Both the position numbers and the translations under genes were made by a program. Shown piece after piece: positions 2,520 through 49,738 of a stretch of DNA of 51,969 nt. Source of the stretch: a virus. The notes below the pieces were generated by a model. It was given only the letters and a program-made list of their open reading frames with translations, made no database searches and was not told the DNA's origin. The stretch covers positions 1-51,969 of IMG/VR virus record IMGVR_UViG_3300020214_000019; one strand, written 5' to 3'. Position 1 is the first letter of the stretch, and each line of letters begins with the position of its first letter.

Positions 2520-2551
2520 GATACTTTAACATTTATAAAATGGAGAAACTA

Positions 2552-3346
2552 ATGAAATATTTGATGATTGCACTATTAATAAGTGCTTGTACTTCTGCAG
2601 AAAATAAAGCTGTAAATCCAGCAAACACAAATCCAATTTTAACTTTATCAGAAAAAAATACAGTGCTTTTAAATATGCCTATTATGGGCGCAATTGCTGC
2701 TACTGTAAGTAAAGAACTTTTAGAAAAAAGTGATGACCTGAAAGATGGTGAGCCTATTTATCTAGTGTTAGATACTCCTGGTGGTAGCGTAGATGATGGT
2801 TTAAAAATTATCGAGGTTGCCAAAAGCTTGCCCAGACCAGTTCATACGGTTAGCATGTTTAATGCTAGCATGGGTTTTATTATTTCTCAAAGCTTGGGTG
2901 ATAGATACATTATCTCGTCATCAACCATGATGAGTCATAGAGCCAGTATTGGGAACATTAGCGGTAGTTTCCCTGGAAGCTTTATTACAAGATTTCAGTC
3001 AATAGCTAATCAGCTAATGAAAATTAATTCAGATGTTGCTGCCAGGGCTGGAATTGGCCTAAACAGTTATTTAGGAATGATCGCCAATGAATTATGGATG
3101 AACCCAGACGAAGCACTTAAAAATAAATTTGCTGATAAAGTTGTAACTTTACGTTGCGACAAAAGCTTAAGAGGTCCTGGAAGCCCTAGAGAACTAGATT
3201 TAGGGTTGTTTGTTGTTAAAATTAGATTCAACAAATGTCCCTTAATCAAGGAAGTGGAGGTAATACGAAGCAATGATGAATCTGCTTTTGAATTCTTTAA
3301 AAAAGATAAAATTGAATTAGTTGAAAAATATGGGTTTATGTTTTAA
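2552..3346 (+). CDS. ClpP-like serine protease with lipoprotein signal
   Basis: A 264-residue protein of the ClpP/SppA crotonase fold. The ATG at 2552 is preferred over 2540 because GGAG lies 7 bases before it and the protein then starts directly with a short signal ending in a lipobox, LISAC (Cys13). Downstream are LVLDTPGGSV (71-80, the ClpP oxyanion-strand motif), the nucleophile in FNASMG (Ser106) and the catalytic His in MMSHRAS (His129). The third triad residue is not certain. As a predicted lipoprotein it should face the periplasm, unlike cytosolic ClpP. It lies directly upstream of FtsH. It might act as a membrane-associated protease on host envelope proteins or in superinfection exclusion, but this is inference. 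Confidence 0.75.
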   Translation: MKYLMIALLISACTSAENKAVNPANTNPILTLSEKNTVLLNMPIMGAIAATVSKELLEKSDDLKDGEPIYLVLDTPGGSVDDGLKIIEVAKSLPRPVHTVSMFNASMGFIISQSLGDRYIISSSTMMSHRASIGNISGSFPGSFITRFQSIANQLMKINSDVAARAGIGLNSYLGMIANELWMNPDEALKNKFADKVVTLRCDKSLRGPGSPRELDLGLFVVKIRFNKCPLIKEVEVIRSNDESAFEFFKKDKIELVEKYGFMF

Positions 3347-3399: not shown

Positions 3400-5202
3400 G
3401 TGAAAATTTCTTTGAAAAGGCTTGCAATATTTCTGTTTATTGGATTTATAGCACTAATTATTGTAAGCCCTAGTGACACGAAAGAAACTACAAAAAAAAT
3501 TAATTTCAAGGAATTTATTGAATATGTTAAAGAAGATAAAATATCTGATGTAACAATAAAACTAAACCAATCGATTACTGGCAAATTTAAAACACCAATA
3601 GAGGATCAATATATATATTTTGAAACCTTTGGAGACACATATAACGCTAGGGTTTTTCAAATACTTGAGGAACATAAAGTAACGCCAAATTATGAATCAG
3701 CTCAAGGCAAAGGTAATATATGGGTTACATTAATAATGATTTTACTGATGGGATTGTTTACTTGGATGATTCTAAACATGTTTAGAAATGCTGCTGGGGG
3801 TGGCTCTGGCGGTCTAGCAAATAGCTTTGGTAGAAGTAGGGCTAGATCTTTTTCAAGGACAAGAAATGCAATCCTTTTTGAAGACGTGGCTGGCATGGAA
3901 GAGGTTAAAGCTGAACTGGAAGAAATTGTGGAGTTTTTAAGGCATCCTGGAAAATTTACTAAACTTGGCGGCAGAATTCCACGTGGGGTACTTTTAACTG
4001 GTGCTCCAGGAACTGGTAAAACTCTTTTAGCTAGAGCTACAGCTGGAGAAGCTGATGTGCCATTTTTCTTTGTTTCTGGTTCAGATTTCGTAGAAATGTT
4101 TGTTGGGGTTGGTGCCTCTAGAGTAAGGGACTTGTTTGACCAAGCTTCGAAAAACGCCCCATGTATTGTTTTTATTGACGAAATAGATACTTTAGGTAAA
4201 AAACGTGGTGTCGGTCTAAGTGGGGGTCACGATGAACGGGAACAAACATTAAACCAGCTTTTGGTAGAAATGGATGGGTTTAGCGGCAATAACGGGGTTA
4301 TTGTCATTGGTGCAACTAACCGTTCTGATATCTTAGATGCCGCTCTTTTAAGACCTGGTAGGTTTGATAGGCAAATCAGTGTTCCTCTGCCTTCTTTGAA
4401 GGGTAGAGAAGAAATTTTTAAAGTTCATACTAAAAAAAACCCTCTTGCAGAAAATGTAGACTTAAACATTTTAGCTAGAAATACTCCTGGATTTTCTGGT
4501 GCTGAAATTGAAAACGTAGTAAATGAAGCTGCTCTTTCTGCTGCCAAAAAGAATAAAAAATTAATTGAAATGGATGATTTTCAGTATGCTATAGATAAAG
4601 TTCTAATGGGGCTTGAAAAGAAAAGCTTGGTAATAAGTGATAAAGAAAAAAGAACAACTGCATATCATGAAGCTGGTCACGCTCTTGTAGGTAAATTACT
4701 TCAAAACATAGACCCAATACATAAAGTAACTATTGTTCCAAGGGGTATGGCTTTAGGGTTAACCCAAACGCTTCCTTTGGAAGATAAAGTATCCATGACC
4801 AAAGAATATGCCGAAGATATGATTTCTTTTCTAATGGGCGGTAGAGTTGCTGAAGAAATCATCATTGGTCAGATTACTACTGGTGCTTCAAACGATATCG
4901 AAAGAGCTTCTGAGCTTGCTAGAAAAATGGTACGTGAATGGGGCTTAAATGACAAAATCGGTCCTATTAGCTATTCAAACGAAAAGGAAAATTACTTTGG
5001 ATTAAGCAAGAAAGAATTTTCCGACGATCTATATAAATTAATCGAGACCGAAGTAAGACAACTAATTACTTCAAACTACGAAAGAGCTAAAAAGCTATTA
5101 AAAGAAAATATCAATTCTCTTCACGCAATAGCATCTGCGTTACTGGAAAAAGAGACTATTAGCGGCAAAGAAATAGATCAGATAATGTCTTCAAGTAAGT
5201 AA
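3400..5202 (+). CDS. ftsH: FtsH ATP-dependent zinc metalloprotease
   Basis: A 600-residue, apparently complete FtsH with a GTG start and GGAG at 3391. Membrane segments lie at about 8-23 and 107-128. The AAA+ module has Walker A GAPGTGKT (201-208), Walker B IVFIDE (256-261), the pore region MFVGVG (233-238) and the second region of homology RPGRFDRQ (318-325). The protease has HEAGH (423-427) and a third zinc ligand in GASNDIERA (Asp499). FtsH extracts and degrades membrane and short-lived cytosolic proteins as an inner-membrane hexamer. Length is close to bacterial FtsH (about 600-650) and all key residues are present, so it should be active. Carriage of a full FtsH by a phage is uncommon. 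Confidence 0.97.
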
Positions 5203-10484: not shown

Positions 10485-11324
10485 TTAAAAGATTAAGTTT
10501 GGGGTATGATGAAACAGACCGTCGCAAGTGCAGGATTTTAAAAGAGTTTCTTGAATATCTTCTTTTTTGTTAACTTTGTAATATTCTTTGTGATAATCGT
10601 AACCTTCGTTTTTAAACACTAATTTGCCGTCTTCATTGAATCCATGATTTGGTGGCACATATGATATAGTATGCCTACATCTTGGGTGAGTTGGGCCTAT
10701 AGTAGCTTTAACGTTTTTATGGGAACTATAACCAAAGTTTAATTCAGACATTTTCCATGGTTTAGGTACGAAAAGATTATTTTCGTCATGCCAAAGTTTT
10801 TTACATGCTTCGCAAATTTTATTATCTACTATTCCAAATTTTACTATTGTGGGGTCGGAAATCCCATCTTTGGCAGCTAAATTAGACACTCCATGCATTT
10901 CTGCATAGGCTTGAACGGTTTTTGTTTCTGTGTTTAAAAGGAGTTCTACGGAATTAGAAGCTTTATTAAAAACATTTTTGACTATTTCATTTATTTCTTT
11001 TTTGCTTTTAGCAGCTTTTAATCCATTTAAAAGCTCGTTAGTTGCCTTAAGCCTTTGCATTTCAAAATAATTTTGCGATATTGATGCAAGACCTTCTAGC
11101 TCTTTATCATCTGGAGAAATACCTATTCCGTACAAAAGGGCTAAAGTGTATAAGTAAATTCCGTCTAGGGTAAACTTTCTATCTGCCGTAGCCGCAAGCA
11201 TCCTATATTTTACTGGACCATCGAATCTACTGCCCAAAAACTTAGCTTGTGCCCTATAGAAAAGGTCTGCTAACAATAAAGAAATAAGTGCTTTCTGGGT
11301 TAAACTGAGCTTACTCTTTTTCAT
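10485..11324 (-). CDS. MuF-type minor head protein
   Basis: A 279-residue protein with the C-terminal Mu F / SPP1 gp7 signature: DNKICEACKKLWHDENN followed by TIGPTHPRCRHTISYVP, the Cys/His pattern of head morphogenesis proteins. The N-terminal half is helical. It overlaps the portal gene by 14 bases, the usual portal-MuF order. These proteins sit inside the head near the portal and some carry toxin domains. No toxin domain is visible here. Confidence 0.8.
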   Translation of the reverse strand: MKKSKLSLTQKALISLLLADLFYRAQAKFLGSRFDGPVKYRMLAATADRKFTLDGIYLYTLALLYGIGISPDDKELEGLASISQNYFEMQRLKATNELLNGLKAAKSKKEINEIVKNVFNKASNSVELLLNTETKTVQAYAEMHGVSNLAAKDGISDPTIVKFGIVDNKICEACKKLWHDENNLFVPKPWKMSELNFGYSSHKNVKATIGPTHPRCRHTISYVPPNHGFNEDGKLVFKNEGYDYHKEYYKVNKKEDIQETLLKSCTCDGLFHHTPNLIF

Positions 11325-14300
11325 CGTTGAAAGATTCTTTTATTTGTTTAATAGCCTGTTTGCTCTCTTTTGACCAATCATCTAGATGTTTTTCAACCAT
11401 TTGCTTGTGTCGTTCCAAGATCGTTTTAGTTAAAACATCGTGATTATTTTGAGTAGCTTTTGCTAAACTTTGAAAGTTTTGCGCATTCCACTCTTCTAAT
11501 GCTTTTTGATTTTTAGCAGTTATTTCGCTTTTTTGAGCTTCTGTTGCGCCCTCTGGTGCTTCTTCTTGTTGTGGCTGTGGTGACATCATTTGCATGTTTT
11601 GCTGTTGAATTTGCTGGGCCATCATTATATTTTGAGAAGCCATTTGAGCTTTTTGTAAAACAATTTGTTGCCATTGTAACCACAATGGATCTCTATACCA
11701 ATCAAATCTTGGATCTTTAGACGCACCTTGTCTGCCAAAGAAATTTTCTAATTTTTCTCCAACGGTTAAATAAGGATCTAGAACACCAGTAACAAACTGT
11801 GGGGCAAGCGGGTAATCTCCGCCAAGCTCTGCTGGCATTTTATCTTTTTCAACTCTTTCTAAAACTTCATTATATGTCATATGAATCGACATATCTTGAG
11901 AGATTCTAGTAGCTTCTTTTTCTGGGCTGTCCTGCTCAAGACCAGCAAAAACAAGCCTATAATGTTTTGAAAATTCAAAATCAATTTCTGGAATTATATG
12001 GGCATTAAAAAAATCCTGTAGGTCAGAAATTAAAGGTCTTAATCCCGCATCTCTTGCAGCGGTTAGCTTCCATTCATTATTGGAATTGTGTACTTGTATT
12101 CCATTTAAAACAAAAGCATGTTCATCATTAAATACTTCAACGTCAACCATTTCAATAGTTTCTTCGCAATCTTTAATGTTAACAACTTGTTCAAAATGAT
12201 GGTTCATAAACCAATCAGGTAATGTAACTTTACACTTTTCCGCTAAAAACATTAAATTACTTTTTGAAATATTTCTATTTCCATTTTTAGCAGCAACAAG
12301 TTGATCTCGTTCAATTTTTGATAGATTTTCTGTCAATCCATTTAAACAAAGTGTAGCAATTGATGACATTAAAGATTTCGGTAAATCTCCAATTGTCCAA
12401 TTTTTGTCTCTTTTTCTTTCTTGTTTATGTTGCTGTAAAAATCCAATATGCGACCAAAATTCATTTCGATCTTTAATAGATATTTTATGGCTAAATTCTT
12501 TTTCTCCAAAAGATTCTCTAAAAACTCCCTTGTATGAATTTGTTCTAATGCCAAGGCCAATTAAAAGTTCTCTAACATCATTGCGCATATCTTCATCTTG
12601 AACAGTAAGAATGATATCGCCATTTTTGGTTACATGTCCATCAGCTGAAAATAAACCACGTAAAAATGCATAACGATGTTCAACTGACATTGTATATAAT
12701 GATTCTGGAACTCTTTTTTTGCTATCTCTTATGAATCCTTCGTCAGTTACCCATCTAACAAAATTAGAATCGTACAGTTTAATATTACGTCTAAATGGGG
12801 CAACAGACTTAAAATTAAACCTTTCAATTATTTTGTCGGCTTCCTCATCTGAAATTTGTTTATCTTCAAATTTAGCATTAAGACCAAATTTATTTAAAAT
12901 ATTTAAATGTCGTTCACGTACATCAATTTCTTTTTCATGATGATAAAATAGCGTTATTTTACCGCCAACCCGTTTTCTTGGCATGGATATACATCCATCT
13001 CCCGACATCCAACCTAAAACTTCCATCATTTCTGAATTTATTTGTTGTTCATTATAATACAGTACGCTATTAGAAACACCTTTAACTGGAACTCCATTAA
13101 CCAGTACGGTATCTCCAATTTTTAATTCTAATTGCTGTCGCCAAGATAATTCACCATTTTCATCAACAACTCTAAAACGGTGATCAGGTGACGTTTTAAG
13201 GGATAAATTGCATTTTAATGTTGTTTCAACTAATGGTTTTGCTCCAGTCCAAAAAATTCTTCCTTCGTTCCATTTATCGCCAGTCCAAACTTCGATATTT
13301 TGTTCTTTAGATTCTCCTAATAAGTCAATTGCACTAAATAGTCCATCTCTAGTTAAGATTTTCATTGATGGATCAAAACACTCTGATAGCGATTGTGTAT
13401 TGGTACCTCTTGCAAGATGTGCGTAACCGGGAAGTTCTTCTGGAGACATTTGAAACGCAGACAAAATAACTCTTGCGTTGCTATCAGAAAGATAACTAAA
13501 TTCAGAATCTTTCCCTGCAGTATCTATTGGTTGCCATGTTAAACTGTCTTCTGGACCAATTCCAAATACTGGCATCCTCCAAGAGTTTTGAACTGAGTTA
13601 ATAGATTGATGAAACTGATTTCTAATTCTTTGTACCGAGCCTTCATCAATATCTGCAGAACTTAAAACCAACATCCCTTTTGAAGCCCTACCATGTTGAA
13701 AATATAATTTATTATGGAGTGCGATGTTAATATGGGTAGCAATAGCGTTCAATGCTTGATCAATTGGGGTCAACGGATAGCCATTAAACTCAACATTATT
13801 AGTTGGAAACAGATTGTAAACTACTAATTCTTGTTCAGAAAATGTTTGTTCTGGTTTACCATTAATAACCTGAACCCATCTATATTCATCCTGTTCATAT
13901 CTTTTAATATCGATTTTTTCATTTTTAAGCTGGGATAAAATTCTAACGGCATTATCCCTGGTACTTTGATCTAAAGATCTTCTAGAAATAATATGGTAAA
14001 CAGTGCCAGAATCCACAGGTCTAAATGCAACTAATCTTTTTTTGCCATTATTTGGGTCTGGGGCGTAAATTCTTTCTACTGCTATTCTTCCATGAGCTAA
14101 TCCATCACGTGTAACCATTTTCATGAACTGTGATAATGTAGGATTAAAGTATTCCCCGCCTTCAATTGCGTCTTTGTGGCCACAATTCCATAAAAATTCT
14201 TTAATTTTTTTAATACGCTCTTTCATTTCTTCATATTCTGGCGTATCTTTTTTAATGGAGTTATTGATTTGAACAAATTCAAACCCTACAGTAAATCTTG

Positions 14301-14655
14301 AAGTTCTAGGTCTTCCAAAAGAAGACATAATATTGGCACGTGCCTGCAGGATTTGACAAACTAAATCATCGCCTTGCGGTCCTGTAATTCTTTTAATGAT
14401 ATAATCGGGCACCAAATTAACTTTAGGTCTATATAAAGCACCGTATGAAGAAGTGGATAAAGTTGGATCAACTTCAAAACTCATTCTTTGAGCTGATTCA
14501 TAATTTTTTAAAGACTTTAAAAGAAGCTCTAGAACACCGGGTTCGGAGGGTTCTTGCTTGTTAAGTTCTTCTTCTTTTTTGGCTAAAGCTTTAATTGCAA
14601 CAGGATCAATTGGTTGCAATTGCTGACCGGGTTTATTTTTATCTTGATCTGCCAT
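11311..14655 (-). CDS. Portal protein interrupted by an intein
   Basis: A 1114-residue precursor: N-extein 1-425, intein 426-857, C-extein 858-1114, giving a spliced portal of 682 residues. The N-extein has portal-like sequence (VVYNLFPTNNVEFNGYPLTP; LSAFQMSPEELPG). The C-extein continues with SNNEWKLTAARDAGLRPL and ends in a Gln/Met-rich helical tail. The portal forms the dodecameric DNA channel of the head. Its place between terminase and MuF genes supports the call. Splicing would be essential because the insertion interrupts the conserved core. Confidence 0.88.
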   Translation of the reverse strand: MADQDKNKPGQQLQPIDPVAIKALAKKEEELNKQEPSEPGVLELLLKSLKNYESAQRMSFEVDPTLSTSSYGALYRPKVNLVPDYIIKRITGPQGDDLVCQILQARANIMSSFGRPRTSRFTVGFEFVQINNSIKKDTPEYEEMKERIKKIKEFLWNCGHKDAIEGGEYFNPTLSQFMKMVTRDGLAHGRIAVERIYAPDPNNGKKRLVAFRPVDSGTVYHIISRRSLDQSTRDNAVRILSQLKNEKIDIKRYEQDEYRWVQVINGKPEQTFSEQELVVYNLFPTNNVEFNGYPLTPIDQALNAIATHINIALHNKLYFQHGRASKGMLVLSSADIDEGSVQRIRNQFHQSINSVQNSWRMPVFGIGPEDSLTWQPIDTAGKDSEFSYLSDSNARVILSAFQMSPEELPGYAHLARGTNTQSLSECFDPSMKILTRDGLFSAIDLLGESKEQNIEVWTGDKWNEGRIFWTGAKPLVETTLKCNLSLKTSPDHRFRVVDENGELSWRQQLELKIGDTVLVNGVPVKGVSNSVLYYNEQQINSEMMEVLGWMSGDGCISMPRKRVGGKITLFYHHEKEIDVRERHLNILNKFGLNAKFEDKQISDEEADKIIERFNFKSVAPFRRNIKLYDSNFVRWVTDEGFIRDSKKRVPESLYTMSVEHRYAFLRGLFSADGHVTKNGDIILTVQDEDMRNDVRELLIGLGIRTNSYKGVFRESFGEKEFSHKISIKDRNEFWSHIGFLQQHKQERKRDKNWTIGDLPKSLMSSIATLCLNGLTENLSKIERDQLVAAKNGNRNISKSNLMFLAEKCKVTLPDWFMNHHFEQVVNIKDCEETIEMVDVEVFNDEHAFVLNGIQVHNSNNEWKLTAARDAGLRPLISDLQDFFNAHIIPEIDFEFSKHYRLVFAGLEQDSPEKEATRISQDMSIHMTYNEVLERVEKDKMPAELGGDYPLAPQFVTGVLDPYLTVGEKLENFFGRQGASKDPRFDWYRDPLWLQWQQIVLQKAQMASQNIMMAQQIQQQNMQMMSPQPQQEEAPEGATEAQKSEITAKNQKALEEWNAQNFQSLAKATQNNHDVLTKTILERHKQMVEKHLDDWSKESKQAIKQIKESFNDEKE
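12085..13380 (-). mobile_element. Intein with LAGLIDADG homing endonuclease
   Basis: A 432-codon in-frame insertion in the portal gene. It starts with Cys426 (CFDPSMKILTRDG, block A), has block B (TSPDHRFRVV, about 488-497), two dodecapeptide motifs of the DOD endonuclease (EVLGWMSGDG, 545-554; AFLRGLFSADG, 663-673), and ends in VEVFNDEHAFVLNGIQVHN with terminal His856-Asn857, followed by Ser858 as the +1 nucleophile. Every residue needed for splicing is visible. Two acidic LAGLIDADG motifs suggest an active endonuclease. Confidence 0.93.
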
Positions 14656-15680: not shown

Positions 15681-16424
15681 TTATAATGTAAGTATCTCAT
15701 ATCCGTTGTCTGTTACTAAAACTGTATGTTCAAAATGCGCTGCCAAGCTGTTATCAATTGTTACTACGGACCATTTATCTTCAAGAACCTTAACGTTTGG
15801 TAATCCTTCGGTTATCATAGGTTCCACGCATATAATCATACCAGATTTTAAAACAAAATCAATAGCATAATCTGGATCATGGATTATATAAGGCTCTTCG
15901 TGCATTTCGGTGCCTATTCCGTGTCCACAGTACTCTTTTATTATACCATATCCGTGCTTAACTGTAATTTCTTTAATCGGTTTAACTAAATCTATTGTAG
16001 ATAATTCTGGTTTTACAGTATAAATACTTGAATATAAACATTTTTCTGTTGTTTCTTTAAGTTTTCTTGCTTTTTCGTTTAATTCACCAATTCCAATAGT
16101 TATTGCGCTATCAGCTAAGTACCCGTTTTTATTAACAACTAAATCTAATTTTACTAAATCACCGTTTTTAAATGGTTTATTATTTGGCACTCCATGTATT
16201 GCTACTTCGTTTACCGAAATACATATACTAGCTGGAAACCCATAATAATTTAAACATGCTGGAATTGCATTTCTTTTTTTAATTAATTCCCTACAAAAAC
16301 CATCTAGTTCTAATGGCGTAGTACCTTCTTTGGCTTTATTTGAAAGTTCTTTTAAAATTTCTGAAACTATTTTTCCAGAATCTTTTATTAAATCTATTTC
16401 TTTTTTAGACTTGATCATCATCAT
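15681..16424 (-). CDS. map: Methionine aminopeptidase, type I
   Basis: A 247-residue MetAP that removes the initiator Met after deformylation. All five metal ligands are visible: Asp94 (VKLDLV), Asp105 (LADSA), His168 (GHGIGTEMHEEP), Glu201 (CVEPM) and Glu232 (HFEHTVL). His77 (AIHGVP) is the usual substrate-binding residue. Length fits the bacterial type without an N-terminal extension. The start overlaps the terminase end by 20 bases, with GGAAG just upstream of three consecutive ATGs. It sits inside the head operon, so it is probably expressed late. A peptide-deformylase-like gene is at 51653. Confidence 0.95.
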   Translation of the reverse strand: MMMIKSKKEIDLIKDSGKIVSEILKELSNKAKEGTTPLELDGFCRELIKKRNAIPACLNYYGFPASICISVNEVAIHGVPNNKPFKNGDLVKLDLVVNKNGYLADSAITIGIGELNEKARKLKETTEKCLYSSIYTVKPELSTIDLVKPIKEITVKHGYGIIKEYCGHGIGTEMHEEPYIIHDPDYAIDFVLKSGMIICVEPMITEGLPNVKVLEDKWSVVTIDNSLAAHFEHTVLVTDNGYEILTL

Positions 16425-19267: not shown

Positions 19268-19951
19268 TTAAAACGGTTTTACTCCAGACTTTAATACTAT
19301 CTCGCATATATGATCAAGTCTTTCAATGTGCTCATAAGCAGACCATGGATCTTTTGCAACAGAACAAACTCCATGTTTATCTTGTCCAACTATATCAAAA
19401 TTTAATTCAGTAATAACGTTTTCTTTAGCTGTTAAATCAATAGAATATTTAACTTCATTTTCTGATATTTTTTCAGCAGTTAAATTATAATCGTTACCAG
19501 AAAGACTTGCCCATGTAGCTAATCCTAACTGATGGCTAATTGCTGGTAAAAATGGAACAGTTGGTGCAACTTTAGTATACCTGCTTATTTCTGGAAACAT
19601 TCTGCTTATTTTTACTAAATCCCATCCGGCAAACATTGCAGATACCACATTTGTAGGGTGTGCGTGTACTATAGCTCTACACGATTTAGCGTCTTTCTGT
19701 AAAAGAAAGTGCATATGTAATTCGCCTGAAGGATTAGAACTACTACCTTCTGGTAAAGAAACATCAGAAAAATCATGTAAAAATTTTAACTTAACCATAT
19801 GTTCAGGATGAATGATGGTTTTCCTCCATCCTGATGGAGTTATATATAAAAATTTAGAATCTTTTTTCCTAAGTGAAACGTTGCCATCTCTCGTAGTAAT
19901 CCAACCACGATCGTACAGCTGTCTCATTACATCGCCTATGGCGGTAAGCAT
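19268..19951 (-). CDS. Class II aldolase/adducin-like protein
   Basis: A 227-residue protein of the class II aldolase/epimerase fold (fuculose-phosphate aldolase, ribulose-phosphate epimerase). The start resembles the family (ITTRDGNVSLRKKDSKFLYI, then TPSG). Zinc ligands are His96 and His98 (VHAHPTN), His193 (DKHGVCS) and the general base Glu77 (NPSGELHMHF). The family usually has NHG where this has DKHG. It may be an auxiliary metabolic enzyme or a structural reuse of the fold. Substrate cannot be told from sequence. Confidence 0.8.
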   Translation of the reverse strand: MLTAIGDVMRQLYDRGWITTRDGNVSLRKKDSKFLYITPSGWRKTIIHPEHMVKLKFLHDFSDVSLPEGSSSNPSGELHMHFLLQKDAKSCRAIVHAHPTNVVSAMFAGWDLVKISRMFPEISRYTKVAPTVPFLPAISHQLGLATWASLSGNDYNLTAEKISENEVKYSIDLTAKENVITELNFDIVGQDKHGVCSVAKDPWSAYEHIERLDHICEIVLKSGVKPF

Positions 19952-26292: not shown

Positions 26293-28050
26293 ATGAGTCT
26301 TTTTCAAGCTAGTAAGCCTAAATCAGCCCCTAAAGTAATGGTGGCTCCAGGAAAAGAGTTAAAAGGGATTGTTTTAGAGACAATGGAACATATTGCCAAA
26401 ATGGTTGGTGCAACTTTAGGACCAGGTGGCAGGCAGGTTTTAATTGAAAGAGCCGAAATAGGGTTAAAACCTATTATGACAAAAGACGGGGTAACCGTTA
26501 TTAAAAATCTTGGTTACGATTCAGCTACCCAGCAATTGGTATTAGAAGCCGTGAGAGATGCCGCTATGCGAACCGCATCAGAAGCTGGTGACGGTACAAC
26601 CACAGCCACTATTCTTGCCGAAAGTATTACCAAAAGAACATCAAAGCTTGTTGAACAGAATCCAAAACTTAGCCCACAAAAAATTGTTAGAGAATTACAG
26701 AATTTGATTCCATTCATTTCAAAAGTTATTGACTCGTATAAAATCAACGTAGATGGCGAGAATTCCGAAATTGTTTTACATAAAGTTGCCACCCTATCTG
26801 CAAATGGGGACAAAGAACTGGCGGATGCAATTATTGAATCTTTTAATACAGTTGGAGATGAGGGTAATATTACAATAATTGAGGCTACTGGACCTTCTAG
26901 GTACGAAATAGAAAAAATTTCTGGTTACACTTTAGACAAAGGTTACGAAGAATCTTGCAGAAATTTTTCTAATGGTTTTATAAATGATAAAAGCGGCACC
27001 ATGATTGTATTAGAAAAACCAATGGTAGTTTTATTCGATGGTACAATTAATGATATTTCACAAATACTTGAACCCATGAACAGAATTGGTCAATATTTTG
27101 CTGAAAACCCCCATTTGACTACTGGAATTGTAATAATTTCCCATGGATTTTCCGATAGCGTAGTTGGAGATTTGCATTTAAATTGGAACAAAGGGACGTT
27201 TAAAGTTCTTCCTGTTGTAACAACTCAAACAGCAACACTTAATTCTAGAACCGAACAGCTATATGATTTGCAAGCTTACACAGGTTCGCCGGTGTTTAAC
27301 CCAATTGATAGACCTTTAATTGACATGAATATAGACTTTTTGATTAAGAAAAACAGAGTTAAAAATATTGAAGTTGGCAGGTTTAGAAGTTCTATTATGG
27401 TAAACGAAGAGGAAAGTTTAATAGAAGCAAGAGTAGAAGAGCTGAAATTAAGAAGAGAAAAGCCAGAAAGCCAATATGAAGCACATGAATTAGACGTAAG
27501 AATTGGAAAATTAACTAGCGGCATAGCACGTTTAAATATTTACGGATTAAGCCAGGGTGAAACAAGAGAAAAAAGAGACAGGGCAGAAGATGCTTGGATG
27601 GCTATTAGAGGTGCGGTTAAATATGGCGCAGTTCCTGGCGGTGGATATACTTTAGTAAGAATTGCCGCAGATTTATTAGAATTAGGTAGAAAAGAAAAAA
27701 ATGAATGCCGGAAAATAGCTATTAGCATATTATCCGACGCTCTAGTGGAGCCAGTTAAAATTTTATATAAAAACTATGGTTTTAATGAACAAGAAACCGA
27801 TAGTATGGTTGGCCAGCTTTTGCAAAAAGATGAACAAACTTTCGATTTGTCTGAGTACGAATGGAGAAATAAAATAGATGTTTTAGATTCAGCTCCAGCA
27901 ATTTTAGAAGCAATTAGAAATAGTATGTCCATAGCGTCACTTTTAGGAACTATGGGCGGACTCATTGCTTTTAAAAGAGACAATGATGCTGATAAAGAAG
28001 AAGAAAAATTTGTAAGGCGTTTTGAAAGAGGCGCTGGTCTTAGAGAATAA
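26293..28050 (+). CDS. groEL: GroEL-type chaperonin
   Basis: A 585-residue group I chaperonin. Nucleotide-binding motifs are intact: GATLGPGGRQVLI (39-51), TKDGVTV (63-69, equivalent of Asp52), AGDGTTTATILA (98-109, Asp87), AEDAWMAIRGAVKYGAVP plus GGG (Asp398 equivalent). The apical region diverges and the usual Gly-Gly-Met tail is missing (ends RRFERGAGLRE). Phage chaperonins are known from a few large phages, where they fold virion or replication proteins. A GroES-like gene lies on the other strand at 21987. The stop overlaps the next start (TAATG). Confidence 0.95.
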   Translation: MSLFQASKPKSAPKVMVAPGKELKGIVLETMEHIAKMVGATLGPGGRQVLIERAEIGLKPIMTKDGVTVIKNLGYDSATQQLVLEAVRDAAMRTASEAGDGTTTATILAESITKRTSKLVEQNPKLSPQKIVRELQNLIPFISKVIDSYKINVDGENSEIVLHKVATLSANGDKELADAIIESFNTVGDEGNITIIEATGPSRYEIEKISGYTLDKGYEESCRNFSNGFINDKSGTMIVLEKPMVVLFDGTINDISQILEPMNRIGQYFAENPHLTTGIVIISHGFSDSVVGDLHLNWNKGTFKVLPVVTTQTATLNSRTEQLYDLQAYTGSPVFNPIDRPLIDMNIDFLIKKNRVKNIEVGRFRSSIMVNEEESLIEARVEELKLRREKPESQYEAHELDVRIGKLTSGIARLNIYGLSQGETREKRDRAEDAWMAIRGAVKYGAVPGGGYTLVRIAADLLELGRKEKNECRKIAISILSDALVEPVKILYKNYGFNEQETDSMVGQLLQKDEQTFDLSEYEWRNKIDVLDSAPAILEAIRNSMSIASLLGTMGGLIAFKRDNDADKEEEKFVRRFERGAGLRE

Positions 28051-28298
28051 TGGGCTGGTTTACTTACAAATGTAACACTCATGGCATCTTTAAAGTGTCG
28101 CTCGATAAGCGTGAAAAAAAAGTACCATGTAAAGCATGCAATGAATCGTCTCCACATATTCCAAAAGTTGGAACATCTGTTGTTTATGAAAGATTAGACA
28201 ATGGGGCAATGGGCAGGGCGGTAGAAAGAATACATAATGTTGAAGAATTAATGGAAGAAAGAAACGATAAAAGCAGGGCTGGTGAAGAAAATGAGTAA
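28050..28298 (+). CDS. Zinc-ribbon protein, 82 aa
   Basis: The N-terminus has a CxxHG...CKAC pattern (YKCNTHGIFKVS; VPCKACNESSP), like FmdB-type small zinc ribbons. The C-terminal half is charged and helical. The start overlaps the GroEL stop, so the two are co-translated. Perhaps a regulator or an RNA/protein adaptor; unproven. Confidence 0.6.
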   Translation: MGWFTYKCNTHGIFKVSLDKREKKVPCKACNESSPHIPKVGTSVVYERLDNGAMGRAVERIHNVEELMEERNDKSRAGEENE

Positions 28299-29310
28299 AG
28301 AAATCTTAGACTTAGCTAAAGGCTCTCCAAAATTTTTGGAAGAATATTGGAAAAATTTAGATCTATCTACTACTAAACATGGAATTGAATATTCTAATCT
28401 TAGATTTTCCCCTAATTTCGGCATGGATTATATATTCAATACTACTGATGAAATGAAAGAAACTATAAGAAAAATACATAAAGCCGTTGGAAACGCCAAC
28501 GTACAAGGAAAACACATAATAGTGGGTAATGGCGTAACTCATATTTTAATGGCCGCAATGTATGCATACTATAAAAAATACGGCAACGACTCTGTAATTG
28601 TAAAAAAACCTTATTATTTTAGATTTCCAGATTTTGTTAAAATTTCTAAGCTAAAATTAGTAGATGACGACAGTGACAAAACTTTAAAACCTATAGAACT
28701 TATTACAACACCAAATAATCCCGATAACGAACTCAGAGTTTCAAGGTCTTCTTCAAAGCAAAAAATATATGATTTATCATATCAATGGCCACAGTACTTA
28801 GAAAATGTAGTTTTAAATGATACAGATATAATGACTTTTAGTTTATCTAAAAGCACTGGACACGCTGCTACAAGAATAGGATGGGGTTTAGTAAGCAATC
28901 CAGAAATAGCTGCCATAATGGAGGATTACGTAGAAAATACTACAGTAGGAACAAGTAATGAATCTCAAGAACGCGCTAGACTTATTTTAGGGATTCAAAG
29001 CGAATTAATTGAGAACAAATCGGGGTTGGACTGTTTTTCATATGGAGCAAAAGAATTAAAAAAACGATGGGATAAGTTATCAGACTTAAAAAAAGATTTA
29101 ACATTTGAAATTTTAAATAAAAAAAACAACGGAATGTTTATTTGGTGCAAGATTAAAGATGGTTCAAATGGGTTTGACCATATGATGAAAAATTTCAACG
29201 TTAAAGTAAAAAAAGGTGAAACCGCAGGAATGGGAAGCGAATATTTTAGACTTTCCGCAGGATGTAGTAATTCGACTTTTGAAGAGTTTTATGATAGACT
29301 TAAAAAGTAA
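28291..29310 (+). CDS. PLP aminotransferase of the alliinase/TAA1 (tryptophan aminotransferase) type
   Basis: 339 residues from ATG 28291 (GTG at 28282 is an alternative). Family hallmarks are in order: VGNGVTHILMAAMYAYY (78-94, PLP phosphate site), TTPNNPD (139-145), IYDLSYQWPQY (159-169, with Asp161 for the PLP pyridine nitrogen), and the PLP-lysine motif FSLSKSTGHAATRIGW (Lys187), then a helix with TVGTSNESQERA. This is the pattern of plant tryptophan aminotransferase TAA1 and alliinase, without the EGF domain. It should transfer an amino group between an aromatic or other amino acid and a 2-oxoacid. Highly unusual in a phage; substrate unknown. Confidence 0.85.
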   Translation: MSKEILDLAKGSPKFLEEYWKNLDLSTTKHGIEYSNLRFSPNFGMDYIFNTTDEMKETIRKIHKAVGNANVQGKHIIVGNGVTHILMAAMYAYYKKYGNDSVIVKKPYYFRFPDFVKISKLKLVDDDSDKTLKPIELITTPNNPDNELRVSRSSSKQKIYDLSYQWPQYLENVVLNDTDIMTFSLSKSTGHAATRIGWGLVSNPEIAAIMEDYVENTTVGTSNESQERARLILGIQSELIENKSGLDCFSYGAKELKKRWDKLSDLKKDLTFEILNKKNNGMFIWCKIKDGSNGFDHMMKNFNVKVKKGETAGMGSEYFRLSAGCSNSTFEEFYDRLKK

Positions 29311-30983
29311 TGTTCTCGCTATCAAAAATAGAATTTGAAGGATTCCGATCTTTTAAAGATAAAGTTGTAATTGAGTTTCCAGATACTGGTGCAGTTTTAA
29401 TATCCGGCAAATACAAAAACGAAGAAATATCATCAGGGTCTGGTAAAAGCTCAATACTTATGGCAGTGGCGTATGCTTTAGGGTTTTGTGATTTACCAGC
29501 AACCGAACTTAAAAATTGGAATTCAAAATCTTTTTATGTTAAATTATTATTAAAAAACAATAATGATATCATAGAGATAACTAGAAATCCAAAGTTAGAA
29601 TTAGTTATTTCTGAAGAAACCCTTAATGGAACCGCAGCTCAAGAAAAATTGGACAAAATACTTGGGGTTAATTCGGATTTTTTAAAAATTTTAACGTATA
29701 GACCACAAAGACAGCCAGGTTCTTTCTTAAGGGCACCCGATAGCGAAAAAAAGAATCTTTTACGAGAAATGCTCCAGCTTTCTGATATCGATACCGCCTA
29801 CTCAAATATAAAATCGTATCATGATTCCAAAAGCATTAATTTTGAAACTCAGGAAAGAGAAATTAATTTTTTAAAAATGAATTTGGACAGCTGGAAAGTA
29901 AACGAACAAGAATATGAAAATGCGGAAAAAGCTTATACTAAGTATAAGCAGGAAATTGACGCTATTAAATCAAACAAGGAATTAATAGAAAATACAAATA
30001 AGTTAAACTATATAAAATCTGAGATATCTAGAATTGGTTCAGTTATTAATCAAGCATATACAAAAAAACAACAAAATGTTGATTTTAAATCAAAAATTAA
30101 AATAATTGAATCTGAACTAGAGCACATACTCGATGAAAAATGCCCCACTTGCTTTCAATTTTGGAAAAAAAACGATGATGTTATTAACCGCAAAAAAGTT
30201 TTTATATCCACATTAAAAAATCAAATAGAGGACAACGAAAGATCAATATTAGAATCTGACAAGTTATCTATTAACTTAAGCGAATTACAGTCAGAATATG
30301 ACAGTATCGTACAAAAAACTGGTAGTGAATCAGCGAAAGCTAAAGAAATTATAGAAAAACTTAATATGGCCAAAAATGTTTTAAGTGTTTTATCAGATAA
30401 AAAAAGCAAATACCTTTCAGTAGTAAAGGATATAGAACTAAAAGAAAGCAATCAAAAAAATATTAGATTACAGCTAGATAGATATTCCCACTGTTTAAAA
30501 ATATTGAGCAATCAAGGGTTCTTGGGGTTTATTTTTGATGAGCTTTTGCAAGAATTAGAATCTAGGGTCAATTCTTTAATATCCGAAATACCTAATTTAT
30601 CCACCTTTTCGGTTTCTATAGACTCTTCTCAGGTAAATAAAAATGGTAACATTAAAAATAATATAAGCATTAAACTTCAAAAACTTGGCAGAGAGGTTCA
30701 AATCAAAGCCTTGTCTGGTGGTCAAACTTGTGCGCTGGAGCTTTGTTTTGATTTGGCGATTAGCGAAATAATAAGAAATAGATCTGGGATTAAATTTAAT
30801 TGGGTTGCATTAGATGAAGCTATGGATGGATTAGATATTGAAACTAAAAGATGTGCAATGGAAACAATAAAAAAGAATATTAACGGCTTAATACTTATAG
30901 TCGACCATTCTACCGAAATTAAAGAGTCTTTTGAAAAATTAATTAATGTTGAATTTGACGGCAAAAACAGTTATATTGTTTAA
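29310..30983 (+). CDS. SbcC/Rad50-type ATPase (T4 gp46-like)
   Basis: A 557-residue SMC-like ATPase. The N-terminal Walker A is SSGSGKSSI (41-49); two coiled-coil arms flank a zinc hook CPTC (278-281); the C-terminal ABC part has a signature-like LSGGQTCALELCFD and Walker B WVALDEAMDGLD. It should pair with the nuclease at 21004 to resect DNA ends. The start ATG overlaps the previous stop (TAATG). Length is close to T4 gp46 (560). Confidence 0.93.
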   Translation: MFSLSKIEFEGFRSFKDKVVIEFPDTGAVLISGKYKNEEISSGSGKSSILMAVAYALGFCDLPATELKNWNSKSFYVKLLLKNNNDIIEITRNPKLELVISEETLNGTAAQEKLDKILGVNSDFLKILTYRPQRQPGSFLRAPDSEKKNLLREMLQLSDIDTAYSNIKSYHDSKSINFETQEREINFLKMNLDSWKVNEQEYENAEKAYTKYKQEIDAIKSNKELIENTNKLNYIKSEISRIGSVINQAYTKKQQNVDFKSKIKIIESELEHILDEKCPTCFQFWKKNDDVINRKKVFISTLKNQIEDNERSILESDKLSINLSELQSEYDSIVQKTGSESAKAKEIIEKLNMAKNVLSVLSDKKSKYLSVVKDIELKESNQKNIRLQLDRYSHCLKILSNQGFLGFIFDELLQELESRVNSLISEIPNLSTFSVSIDSSQVNKNGNIKNNISIKLQKLGREVQIKALSGGQTCALELCFDLAISEIIRNRSGIKFNWVALDEAMDGLDIETKRCAMETIKKNINGLILIVDHSTEIKESFEKLINVEFDGKNSYIV

Positions 30984-46883: not shown

Positions 46884-47774
46884 ATGAAATTATTAACAAA
46901 AATTATTGATTTTTTATGGATTTTTAATTTTATAGTAAAAACCTCGATAAAAAAAATTTTTTTTATCAAAAAAAATACGCCAGACATATACCATGCAGAT
47001 AAATTTGGGTTTTTTTATAATCAGAGTGATATAAGATATGTTCCAGCAACCTTGCTATGGGACATATTAAAAATATGCAGAGTTATTTATTTATTAAACA
47101 AAAACAATTTTGTTTCTATTTATTTACGGGGCGGCATTTCCACTGGAAATTTCACAAAAAACATAAGCGACTTAGATTTAATTTTAATTTGCGACAATTT
47201 AGATTTGTGTAAGCCGTCGGTTGATTACATCGCTAAAAATGTACATTTTTTATCTAAAAAATATATAAAAGTAGACATAAGCATAATAAATTATAAGGAT
47301 TTAGTTAATGATTCCATAGAACCAAAAACAAAATTAATTTTTAATATGCAGTCGACCCATATATTTGGAAAAAAAATTAAAATGGAGGGCAGGGTTTCTA
47401 AGAATAACCCAGATCTTTGGACGTTTTTCTCTTCGTTTTTAATAAATTCTAGGCAAGAAATAGTTCAATCATTAAACAGTTTAGATCAGTATAATGAAAG
47501 CGAAAGAAAAAAGGTTATGGGTCAATTAATTAAAACAATTGTTCGTGGAAGTTTTGAACGAATATATAAATTTGAACCAATCTATACAAAAAACCTAATT
47601 CATATAATAAGGATTTACGAAAAAACTAAAAAGTCTTTGACGGACTTAGAAAAACAACATATAAAAAAATGTTCGGAATTGGTTCGTTTTTTGGGATCGG
47701 ACGTTAAAGATCAAAATGATTTAATTAGGTTTAAATCGTTAGTTTTTGATATTTTAAATAATTTTAGTTTATGA
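46884..47774 (+). CDS. Nucleotidyltransferase-fold protein
   Basis: A 296-residue protein with the minimal NTase signature LRGGISTGNFTKNISDLDLI (81-100): Gly-Gly-x-Ser followed by Asp96 and Asp98, and a third acidic residue in KVDISIINYKDL (Asp131). The N-terminal 30 residues are hydrophobic and Lys-rich. The C-terminal half is helical. NTases of this type add a nucleotide to a protein, RNA or small molecule (MNT/HEPN systems, drug modifiers). It overlaps the oxygenase gene by 4 bases (ATGA), so both proteins are likely made together. Confidence 0.75.
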   Translation: MKLLTKIIDFLWIFNFIVKTSIKKIFFIKKNTPDIYHADKFGFFYNQSDIRYVPATLLWDILKICRVIYLLNKNNFVSIYLRGGISTGNFTKNISDLDLILICDNLDLCKPSVDYIAKNVHFLSKKYIKVDISIINYKDLVNDSIEPKTKLIFNMQSTHIFGKKIKMEGRVSKNNPDLWTFFSSFLINSRQEIVQSLNSLDQYNESERKKVMGQLIKTIVRGSFERIYKFEPIYTKNLIHIIRIYEKTKKSLTDLEKQHIKKCSELVRFLGSDVKDQNDLIRFKSLVFDILNNFSL

Positions 47775-48364
47775 AAAACCTTTTAGATTACAAAAAAAGA
47801 ATAATAAATTCTTATTTCAACAAAGATATTGTTATAAACAATGATATTGTTTTAATCAAAAACACCCTTTCTAAAGAAACCATGAGTATTTTGAATAAAG
47901 ACATAAGCCTAATAAAAGATTGGAATACAGTCTTTGTTAAAGATGAACAAATTAAAAAGGAAACTACCAAAATACATTTTATTAAAAACACTGAAGTAGA
48001 CAATAAATTATTTGAAACAACAAAAGAAATTTTAGAAATATATTCAATATTTTATCCAGAAATTAAAAATTTAATAAATGGCGATCAGGGATACAGATAT
48101 AACTTCTATTTTAATGGAACAGGGTATTATCATCATACAGATTGTTCTAAGCTGTCCCCCGTTTTAAGGGAACGCGTTGTATCTTGTGTGATTCAATTAA
48201 ATTCCGATTATGAGGGTGGCGTTCTTGAGTTTCCAAATCAAAATTTTAGGGTTAAACTGGGGCAGGGGGATGTAATACTTTTTCCATCAATACATACACA
48301 TCCACATACCGTACATCCAGTTACAAACGGACAAAGAAAAAACGTAGTAACTTGGTTTGTTTAG
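47771..48364 (+). CDS. 2-oxoglutarate/Fe(II) dioxygenase (prolyl-hydroxylase-like)
   Basis: A 197-residue dioxygenase with the HxD...H facial triad: YYHHTDCSKLS (His122, Asp124) and VHPVTNGQRKNVVTWF (His182, with Arg189 placed to bind 2-oxoglutarate). YEGGVLEFPNQ and the GQGDVILFPS strand complete the prolyl-4-hydroxylase pattern. It would hydroxylate a protein, nucleic acid or small molecule. Translationally coupled to the NTase at 46884. Substrate unknown. Confidence 0.88.
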   Translation: MKNLLDYKKRIINSYFNKDIVINNDIVLIKNTLSKETMSILNKDISLIKDWNTVFVKDEQIKKETTKIHFIKNTEVDNKLFETTKEILEIYSIFYPEIKNLINGDQGYRYNFYFNGTGYYHHTDCSKLSPVLRERVVSCVIQLNSDYEGGVLEFPNQNFRVKLGQGDVILFPSIHTHPHTVHPVTNGQRKNVVTWFV

Positions 48365-48881: not shown

Positions 48882-49148
48882 ATGGAAGATCTATTTTTAG
48901 AAAATGAGTTTTATAAGCATAAAAAATTTAAAGATTTATGCATTAGAATTGCAAAGTTTACTGGCCGTGGAACTCAAGGACTATATTTCAATATTGAGTA
49001 TTGGAATTTGGGTTGCATGGGCAGGCCATGGCAAATTGGCAAGTCGTATAATTTTTTAATTAAATATGAAGATGTTGAAAATTGGGACATTATTGAAGAA
49101 GACGAGTTTTTCTCACCCAGACCTAAAAGCCACTTATACGACGCATGA
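48882..49148 (+). CDS. Hypothetical protein, 88 aa
   Basis: An aromatic-rich 88-residue protein (YFNIEYWNLGCMGRPWQIGK). It overlaps the Mom-like gene by 4 bases, so it may work with it. Family not recognised. Confidence 0.6.
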   Translation: MEDLFLENEFYKHKKFKDLCIRIAKFTGRGTQGLYFNIEYWNLGCMGRPWQIGKSYNFLIKYEDVENWDIIEEDEFFSPRPKSHLYDA

Positions 49149-49738
49149 GCACGAGAATTAAAAATTCCTTTTATATAAAAAAAATCGACTATGGTTTGGC
49201 CATGGATATTGTTATTAAAAACCATTATTTGCACAGAAAAGCTCCGTGTTCTTGTGCGTTTGGATTATTCAGCAAAACAAGCGAAGAAATAGAGGGTGTA
49301 ATAACTTATGGCGTGAGCTGTAGCTCAACTTTGCTAAAAGGCATATGTGGAGATAGCGAAAAAAATAATGTGTATGAATTGACTCGATTATGGGTGAGCG
49401 ATAAAGTCCCTAAAAACGGGGAAAGCTTTTTAATTGGCAATACTATAAAATTATTAGACAAAGAAATAATAGTTTCGTTTTCTGAAATTCAGCAGGGTCA
49501 TGTTGGTATTGTTTATCAGGCTACTAACTTTTATTACTGTGGATTAAGTGCTAAATTTAGAGATCCAAAAGTTAAAGGTTTAGAGCATCAACATCACGCA
49601 ACATATGCCCACGGTATGACCATGGAAGAAGTAAAACAAAAATATGGTGAATCTAACGTCTATTATATAGACAGGCCAAGAAAACATCGATATATATATT
49701 TTAATACAAAAGATCAAAAAAGAAAAAAAGAGCTTTAA
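49145..49738 (+). CDS. Mom-like DNA-modification acyltransferase
   Basis: A 197-residue protein resembling phage Mu Mom and relatives: KNHYLHRK (25-32), GVITYGVS, ELTRLWVSDKVPKNGES (79-95), SFSEIQQGHVGIVYQATNFY (111-130) and YCG, ending with KHRYIYF. In Mu, Mom adds a carbamoylmethyl group to adenine N6, shielding phage DNA from restriction. The similar layout suggests base modification, but the exact product is not predictable. The small coupled gene upstream could be a helper. Confidence 0.75.
   Translation: MSTRIKNSFYIKKIDYGLAMDIVIKNHYLHRKAPCSCAFGLFSKTSEEIEGVITYGVSCSSTLLKGICGDSEKNNVYELTRLWVSDKVPKNGESFLIGNTIKLLDKEIIVSFSEIQQGHVGIVYQATNFYYCGLSAKFRDPKVKGLEHQHHATYAHGMTMEEVKQKYGESNVYYIDRPRKHRYIYFNTKDQKRKKEL

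Follow-up and report, generated by a model that had tools for sequence, protein, structure and literature searches.

An alliinase/TAA-family PLP enzyme encoded by phages, with a predicted polar or cationic substrate

The enzyme gene and its surroundings

The window (the whole 51,969-nucleotide stretch of viral DNA analysed here, IMG/VR record IMGVR_UViG_3300020214_000019) encodes a pyridoxal phosphate (PLP) enzyme within a compact gene cluster, the components of which are as follows.

26293..28050, plus strand: GroEL-like chaperonin, the upstream gene of the cluster (phrog_5725, E 1.6e-89; PF00118)
28050..28298, plus strand: zinc-ribbon-like small protein (an ORF with a weak PF09723 match below the cut-off; conserved in the lineage)
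28282..29310, plus strand: fold-type-I PLP enzyme of the alliinase/TAA family (PF04864, PDB matches, AlphaFold2 model, VIA-align)
29310..30983, plus strand: SbcC-like ATPase (phrog_77, E 8e-40)

The plus-strand frame at 28291-29310 is open and intact, with a stop codon at its end. It yields a protein of 339 amino acids from the ATG at 28291, or of 342 from the GTG at 28282, the mechanically assigned ORF start 9 bases further 5'. The homologue in contig L002, 87% identical to the window enzyme, has an ATG start that aligns with this GTG, and 28282 may be the true start of the gene. The small zinc-ribbon-like ORF lies between the GroEL and enzyme genes, and its 3' end (28298) overlaps the enzyme start; the enzyme stop and the start of the SbcC-like gene overlap in the sequence TAATG at 29308-29312. 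These overlaps on both sides indicate tight packing, and the enzyme and its neighbours are probably translationally coupled. Scans for promoters and terminators performed no better than on shuffled sequences. In comparison to L002, dN/dS is 0.078 for the enzyme gene (dS approximately 1.1, near saturation) and a comparable 0.062 for the SbcC neighbour, which indicates that the enzyme gene is under purifying selection.

The phage nature of the contig is evident from a terminase large subunit and a GroEL related to those of Myxococcus phage Mx1, an intein-containing portal protein, and phage helicase and SbcC families. Other genes observed in the window are listed below.

2540-3346: ClpP-like protein with a lipoprotein-like N-terminus, beside the FtsH-like gene
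3400-5202, plus strand: FtsH-like membrane AAA protease, complete with its extracellular, AAA and M41 peptidase domains
11311-14655, minus strand: portal protein split by an intein that contains a LAGLIDADG homing endonuclease
15681-16424, minus strand: M24 (methionine aminopeptidase-like) peptidase, metabolic-looking, among structural genes
19268-19951, minus strand: class II aldolase, likewise metabolic-looking and among structural genes
47771-48364, plus strand: 2OG-Fe(II) oxygenase
49145-49738, plus strand: Mom-family DNA modification protein (PF25680 match at 1e-42); 6 of 23 enzyme contigs, including the window, have it above the cut-off

Family membership and predicted fold

TAA1 is the plant enzyme that starts auxin synthesis, and alliinase is the enzyme that generates the smell of garlic. 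A preliminary description of this DNA had proposed homology to both on the basis of the motifs FSLSKSTGHAATRIGW, IYDLSYQWPQY and TPNNPD, all of which are present in the window protein exactly as first quoted. The proposal is borne out. The Alliinase_C profile (PF04864) matches the whole protein with an E-value of 4e-62 and 210.7 bits (curated cut-off 22), the alignment spanning protein residues 7-339 and positions 2-361 of the 363 in the profile. A sequence search of the PDB returned TAA1 (PDB code: 3bwn; 5e-41) and alliinase (2hor; 5e-30), and nothing else under E 0.01.

An AlphaFold2 model of the enzyme, calculated with 29 family members as input and representing a single subunit free of cofactor, has a mean pLDDT of 94.4. 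The highest VIA-align scores for this model were for TAA1 (Z 41.2 with 3bwo and 41.1 with 3bwn) and alliinase (Z 40.9 with 1lk9), followed by ACC synthase with a Z-score of 29.7. From a library of predicted viral structures only general aminotransferase-fold matches were returned, the best being a giant-virus LL-diaminopimelate aminotransferase with 16% identity, and PHROGs holds no named function for a PLP enzyme of the alliinase/TAA type. Profile, fold, PLP-site residues and tree all agree, and membership of the window enzyme in the PF04864 family is confirmed.

An ordinary class-I aspartate-type aminotransferase taken from the host would fit the match to Aminotran_1_2, but that match is much weaker (E 8e-11). 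The alliinase/TAA family, phage members included, forms one branch of the phylogenetic tree with 100/100 support, apart from the four class-I aminotransferases used as outgroup; the bacterial aspartate-aminotransferase clade that the preliminary description had named as the placement that would count against it is therefore not where the protein falls. With the gap in fold score (Z 41 versus 30) and a homologue essentially missing from bacterial genomes, a host-derived class-I enzyme is scarcely credible.

The PLP site and a substrate-pocket signature

Three codons of the enzyme gene are central to its interpretation.

28621..28623, plus strand: R111, part of the phage signature (Arg in 28 and Lys in the other of the 29 phage proteins, where TAA1 has Thr and alliinase has Val)
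28849..28851, plus strand: K187, the predicted PLP lysine (TAA1 K217, alliinase K251), the same in all 30 family sequences aligned
28933..28935, plus strand: E215, at AspAT position 292 (Glu in all 29 phage proteins, as against Ile in TAA1 and Thr in alliinase)

Besides K187, the positions matched between the window protein, TAA1 and alliinase, respectively, are Y47/Y58/Y92, N143/N168/N207, D161/D191/D225, Y164/Y194/Y228, R195/R225/R259 and R320/R363/R401, and the PLP-stacking aromatic Y109 corresponds to alliinase Y165. The roles of these residues are established for alliinase and the fold-type-I aminotransferases. Every mapped PLP-site position is kept, including the putative PLP lysine on which the preliminary description relied, and there is no sign of a dead enzyme.

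The pocket itself has a signature of its own. Position 215 aligns with a residue of the aspartate aminotransferase (AspAT) from Thermus thermophilus that is Ser in the wild-type and Arg in engineered double and tetra mutants, a site which we take to be position 292 in pig AspAT numbering, the selector of the substrate side chain. In AspAT, Arg292 is contributed by the partner subunit and binds the distal carboxylate of the substrate; an acidic residue in its place favours cationic substrates. At the selector position the window protein has Glu215, as against the hydrophobic Ile245 of TAA1. R111 is situated two residues downstream of the PLP-stacking aromatic, and Gly281 is present in all 29 aligned phage members, followed at 282 by Met (Ile in one). 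The residues at the signature sites are I245, T131 and P325-A326 in TAA1, and T279, V167 and P361-S362 in alliinase. As judged by alignment to AspAT, E215 and R111 would both face the substrate; the two may instead pair as a salt bridge and neutralise each other.

These observations bear on the metabolic role first suggested for the enzyme, namely that of a TAA1-like tryptophan or aromatic aminotransferase that makes indole-3-pyruvate, possibly for an indole-type signal, or reroutes aromatic amino acids. TAA1 heads the PDB matches by sequence and, within the range of a tie, also by fold, and its PLP site is identical. The window protein nevertheless lies outside the TAA1 clade, and Ile245 of TAA1 is replaced by Glu in 29 of 29 aligned phage members, a substitution that alone does not exclude aromatic substrates. 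A YUCCA-superfamily flavin monooxygenase (PF00743) was found in none of 30 family contigs, many of them fragments, by a search that was positive in 7 of 14 control genomes, so that there is no TAA-YUC pair in the sequenced parts and an auxin pathway was rejected. The homology claim thus holds while the tryptophan/indole reading is unsupported, and we consider it unlikely.

Distribution among phages and bacteria

A degenerate DNA pattern (KxTGH..[ST]RxGW) matched 26 IMG/VR contigs in a first, narrower scan. All 26 were recognised as family members by a profile that combined TAA1 and alliinase with the window and L002 proteins and was made before the pattern matches were aligned. A widened pattern identified 29 viral contigs and a profile-guided scan 37 loci, amounting in combination to about 40 contigs. 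The preliminary description knew of no such enzyme in a phage, and this agrees with the outcome of our searches: tblastn with three diverse queries did not find the family in 50,697 GenBank phage records, and no literature linking alliinase or PF04864 to phages was found among open-licence papers, preprints excluded.

The family was likewise not found by tblastn with one query against 72,556 plasmids, and a peptide-pattern scan of 84,980 bacterial and archaeal species genomes gave no confirmed member. The DNA pattern returned a single match from the 84,980 genomes, at positions 3559-4023 (minus strand) of L064, a contig of 4 kb from a Blastocatellia metagenome-assembled genome. It encodes a family fragment of 154 amino acids at the contig end, with Leu at position 215 and hence without the phage Glu215 signature. 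The fragment adjoins IS21-type transposase genes, as read from ORFs. At a threshold of 1e-10, PF04864 matched 1 of 396 genomes of the same phylum (Acidobacteriota) and 0 of 14 control genomes; this threshold was chosen because at the default E-value the profile matches 5 of the 14 controls, presumably through ordinary aminotransferases. The full-profile bacterial search covered the Acidobacteriota, and the wider bacteria were covered by the pattern and peptide scans of the 84,980 genomes. Since His191 is replaced by Leu in three phage members and the patterns miss members lacking it, the number given for bacteria is a minimum. Across these sequence collections, family members appear phage-specialised and are nearly absent from bacterial genomes.

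The gene neighbourhoods of the family contigs correspond to several unrelated phage groups, as follows.

Window, L002, L030, L040/L041/L043, L050 and L070 (group A): order GroEL, zinc ribbon or small ORF, enzyme, SbcC
L037-L049 group: enzyme gene adjoining terminase, P22-like portal and endolysin genes
L009/L044 group: contigs with a B12-type ribonucleotide reductase (RNR) and a PD-(D/E)XK nuclease
L060-L063: enzyme gene by a dCMP deaminase and a SIS domain
L031/L051 and L052: contigs with a head maturation protease
L058: enzyme gene next to a VWA/metallopeptidase protein and not far from thymidylate synthase
L066: enzyme gene by a 5'-nucleotidase and an exonuclease

Pfam terminase and capsid searches were informative for few of the remaining contigs, and the same model misses the window's own terminase. 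The operon with GroEL and an SbcC-like ATPase, to which the preliminary description had drawn attention, is real and recurs in seven further IMG/VR contigs. The adjacency is, however, confined to one Mx1-like lineage and consequently provides no clue to enzyme function; a function tied to GroEL and SbcC was rejected, as other contigs carry the enzyme gene elsewhere. A constant partner gene was also sought and none was found across lineages, the co-occurrence of Mom being patchy.

The neighbourhoods also bear on whether the PLP enzyme could take part in phage DNA modification, its substrate being a nucleotide, a DNA base or a tRNA-linked compound. The Mom-family protein (49145-49738) and 2OG-Fe oxygenase (47771-48364) of the window are in keeping with this, as are the RNR, dCMP deaminase, thymidylate synthase or 5'-nucleotidase genes close by in some other phages. 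Nucleotide genes are, however, common in phages and no such partner is constant across lineages; Mom exceeds the Pfam cut-off in only 6 of 23 contigs and is absent from G002, a 144 kb close relative. A literature search on hypermodified bases produced no match. Taken together, a role of this kind is very unlikely.

Phylogeny and origin

Within the alliinase/TAA branch, TAA1 groups with alliinase (100/99) and the window protein is placed outside that pair, on a long branch shared with L002 that has no resolved sister. The eukaryotic rows of the comparison are the two PDB sequences, TAA1 and alliinase. A single clade of all phage members is not rejected by the AU test (p 0.41 with L064, 0.34 without), so neither a recent capture from plants nor a phage-to-plant transfer is demonstrated; recent transfer from plants was set aside because other phage members are at least as close as TAA1. 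The six GroEL-operon members in the tree form no resolved clade, although the AU test does not reject their monophyly (p 0.37), and a single acquisition in that lineage was set aside as well.

A broader scenario is that of a virus-centred alliinase/TAA branch with a substrate different from those of both known activities, for which phages serve as the reservoir of rare cellular copies and possibly of the ancestor of plant TAA and alliinase. We regard it as a tentative idea with perhaps an outside chance of being correct. How plant auxin biosynthesis arose is a matter of dispute, in part because the prokaryotic relatives that have been cited for TAA1 are distant, at approximately 25% identity with a best E-value of 2e-8 (PMC4754409). 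The diverse phage branch supplies closer relatives of TAA1 from the prokaryotic world, by which the question of auxin origin becomes testable.

Proposed function

We propose that the window protein is a phage-specialised PLP enzyme of the alliinase/TAA family that acts as an aminotransferase on a polar or cationic amino-acid-like substrate, and on the sequence and model evidence assign this reading a probability of roughly 60%. The enzyme would be a homodimer carrying PLP on Lys187, in which R320 would hold the alpha-carboxylate of the substrate, while E215 of the partner subunit and R111 would together read its side chain. As E215 occupies the AspAT site of the carboxylate-holding arginine, the substrate is likely to be an amino acid that is polar or positively charged, or else a metabolite bearing an amine, and not tryptophan.

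Alliinase has the same catalytic residues, so that sequence cannot separate transamination from beta-elimination. The protein could accordingly be an alliinase-like C-S (beta-)lyase that releases pyruvate, ammonia and a sulfur product from cysteine-S-conjugates or from their sulfoxides, a reading favoured by the fold score (alliinase ties with TAA1, Z 40.9) and by the sharing of all mapped catalytic residues. On the other hand, the window protein has no EGF-like domain or N-terminal extension, alliinase groups with TAA1 while the phage protein stands apart, and no sulfur-metabolism gene is present among the annotated neighbours. We judge a lyase of this kind improbable.

If it is an aminotransferase as proposed, the enzyme would be an auxiliary metabolic enzyme through which the phage diverts the host amino-acid pool during infection. 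The gene is encoded among phage genes and is conserved by selection, as expected of an auxiliary metabolic gene. For phage biology, the family offers a PLP enzyme that is found in several unrelated contexts and comes with a clear prediction for its substrate pocket.

Comparison with known systems

The order of GroEL, small ORF and SbcC-type gene is the same in Myxococcus phage Mx1, the terminase and GroEL of which are 34% and 42.5% identical to the window proteins. In Mx1, however, the enzyme gene is absent and the small ORF is separated from the SbcC-type recombination endonuclease by 8 bp; no family member was found in the whole Mx1 genome, in a search run without a positive control on that record. 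Mx1 having the operon without the enzyme, the gene was inserted into, or lost from, the operon within the lineage.

The class I-gamma aspartate/aromatic aminotransferases (2z61, 1o4s, 1gd9) resemble the window protein in their fold type I, PLP lysine and general architecture, but lack the TGH..RxGW and YxWPxY motifs, and have an identity to it of approximately 14-21% and Z-scores of 30 or less. Much closer are TAA1 and alliinase, each 32% identical to the window protein. Garlic alliinase (alliin lyase, 1lk9/2hor) shares the family and the fold, with K251, N207, D225, Y228, R259 and R401 all matched. It differs in Thr279 and Val167, which are Glu215 and Arg111 in the phage protein, and in its EGF-like N-terminal part, absent from the phage protein, whose catalytic domain starts as early as residue 7 (of 339). 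Arabidopsis L-tryptophan aminotransferase TAA1 (3bwn/3bwo) belongs to the same Pfam family, superimposes with an rmsd of 1.8 over approximately 327 residues at an identity of about 30%, has all mapped PLP-site residues in common and, like the phage protein, has no EGF domain. The two differ in the pocket, where Ile245, Thr131 and Pro325-Ala326 of TAA1 are replaced by Glu215, Arg111 and Gly281-Met282 in the phage protein.
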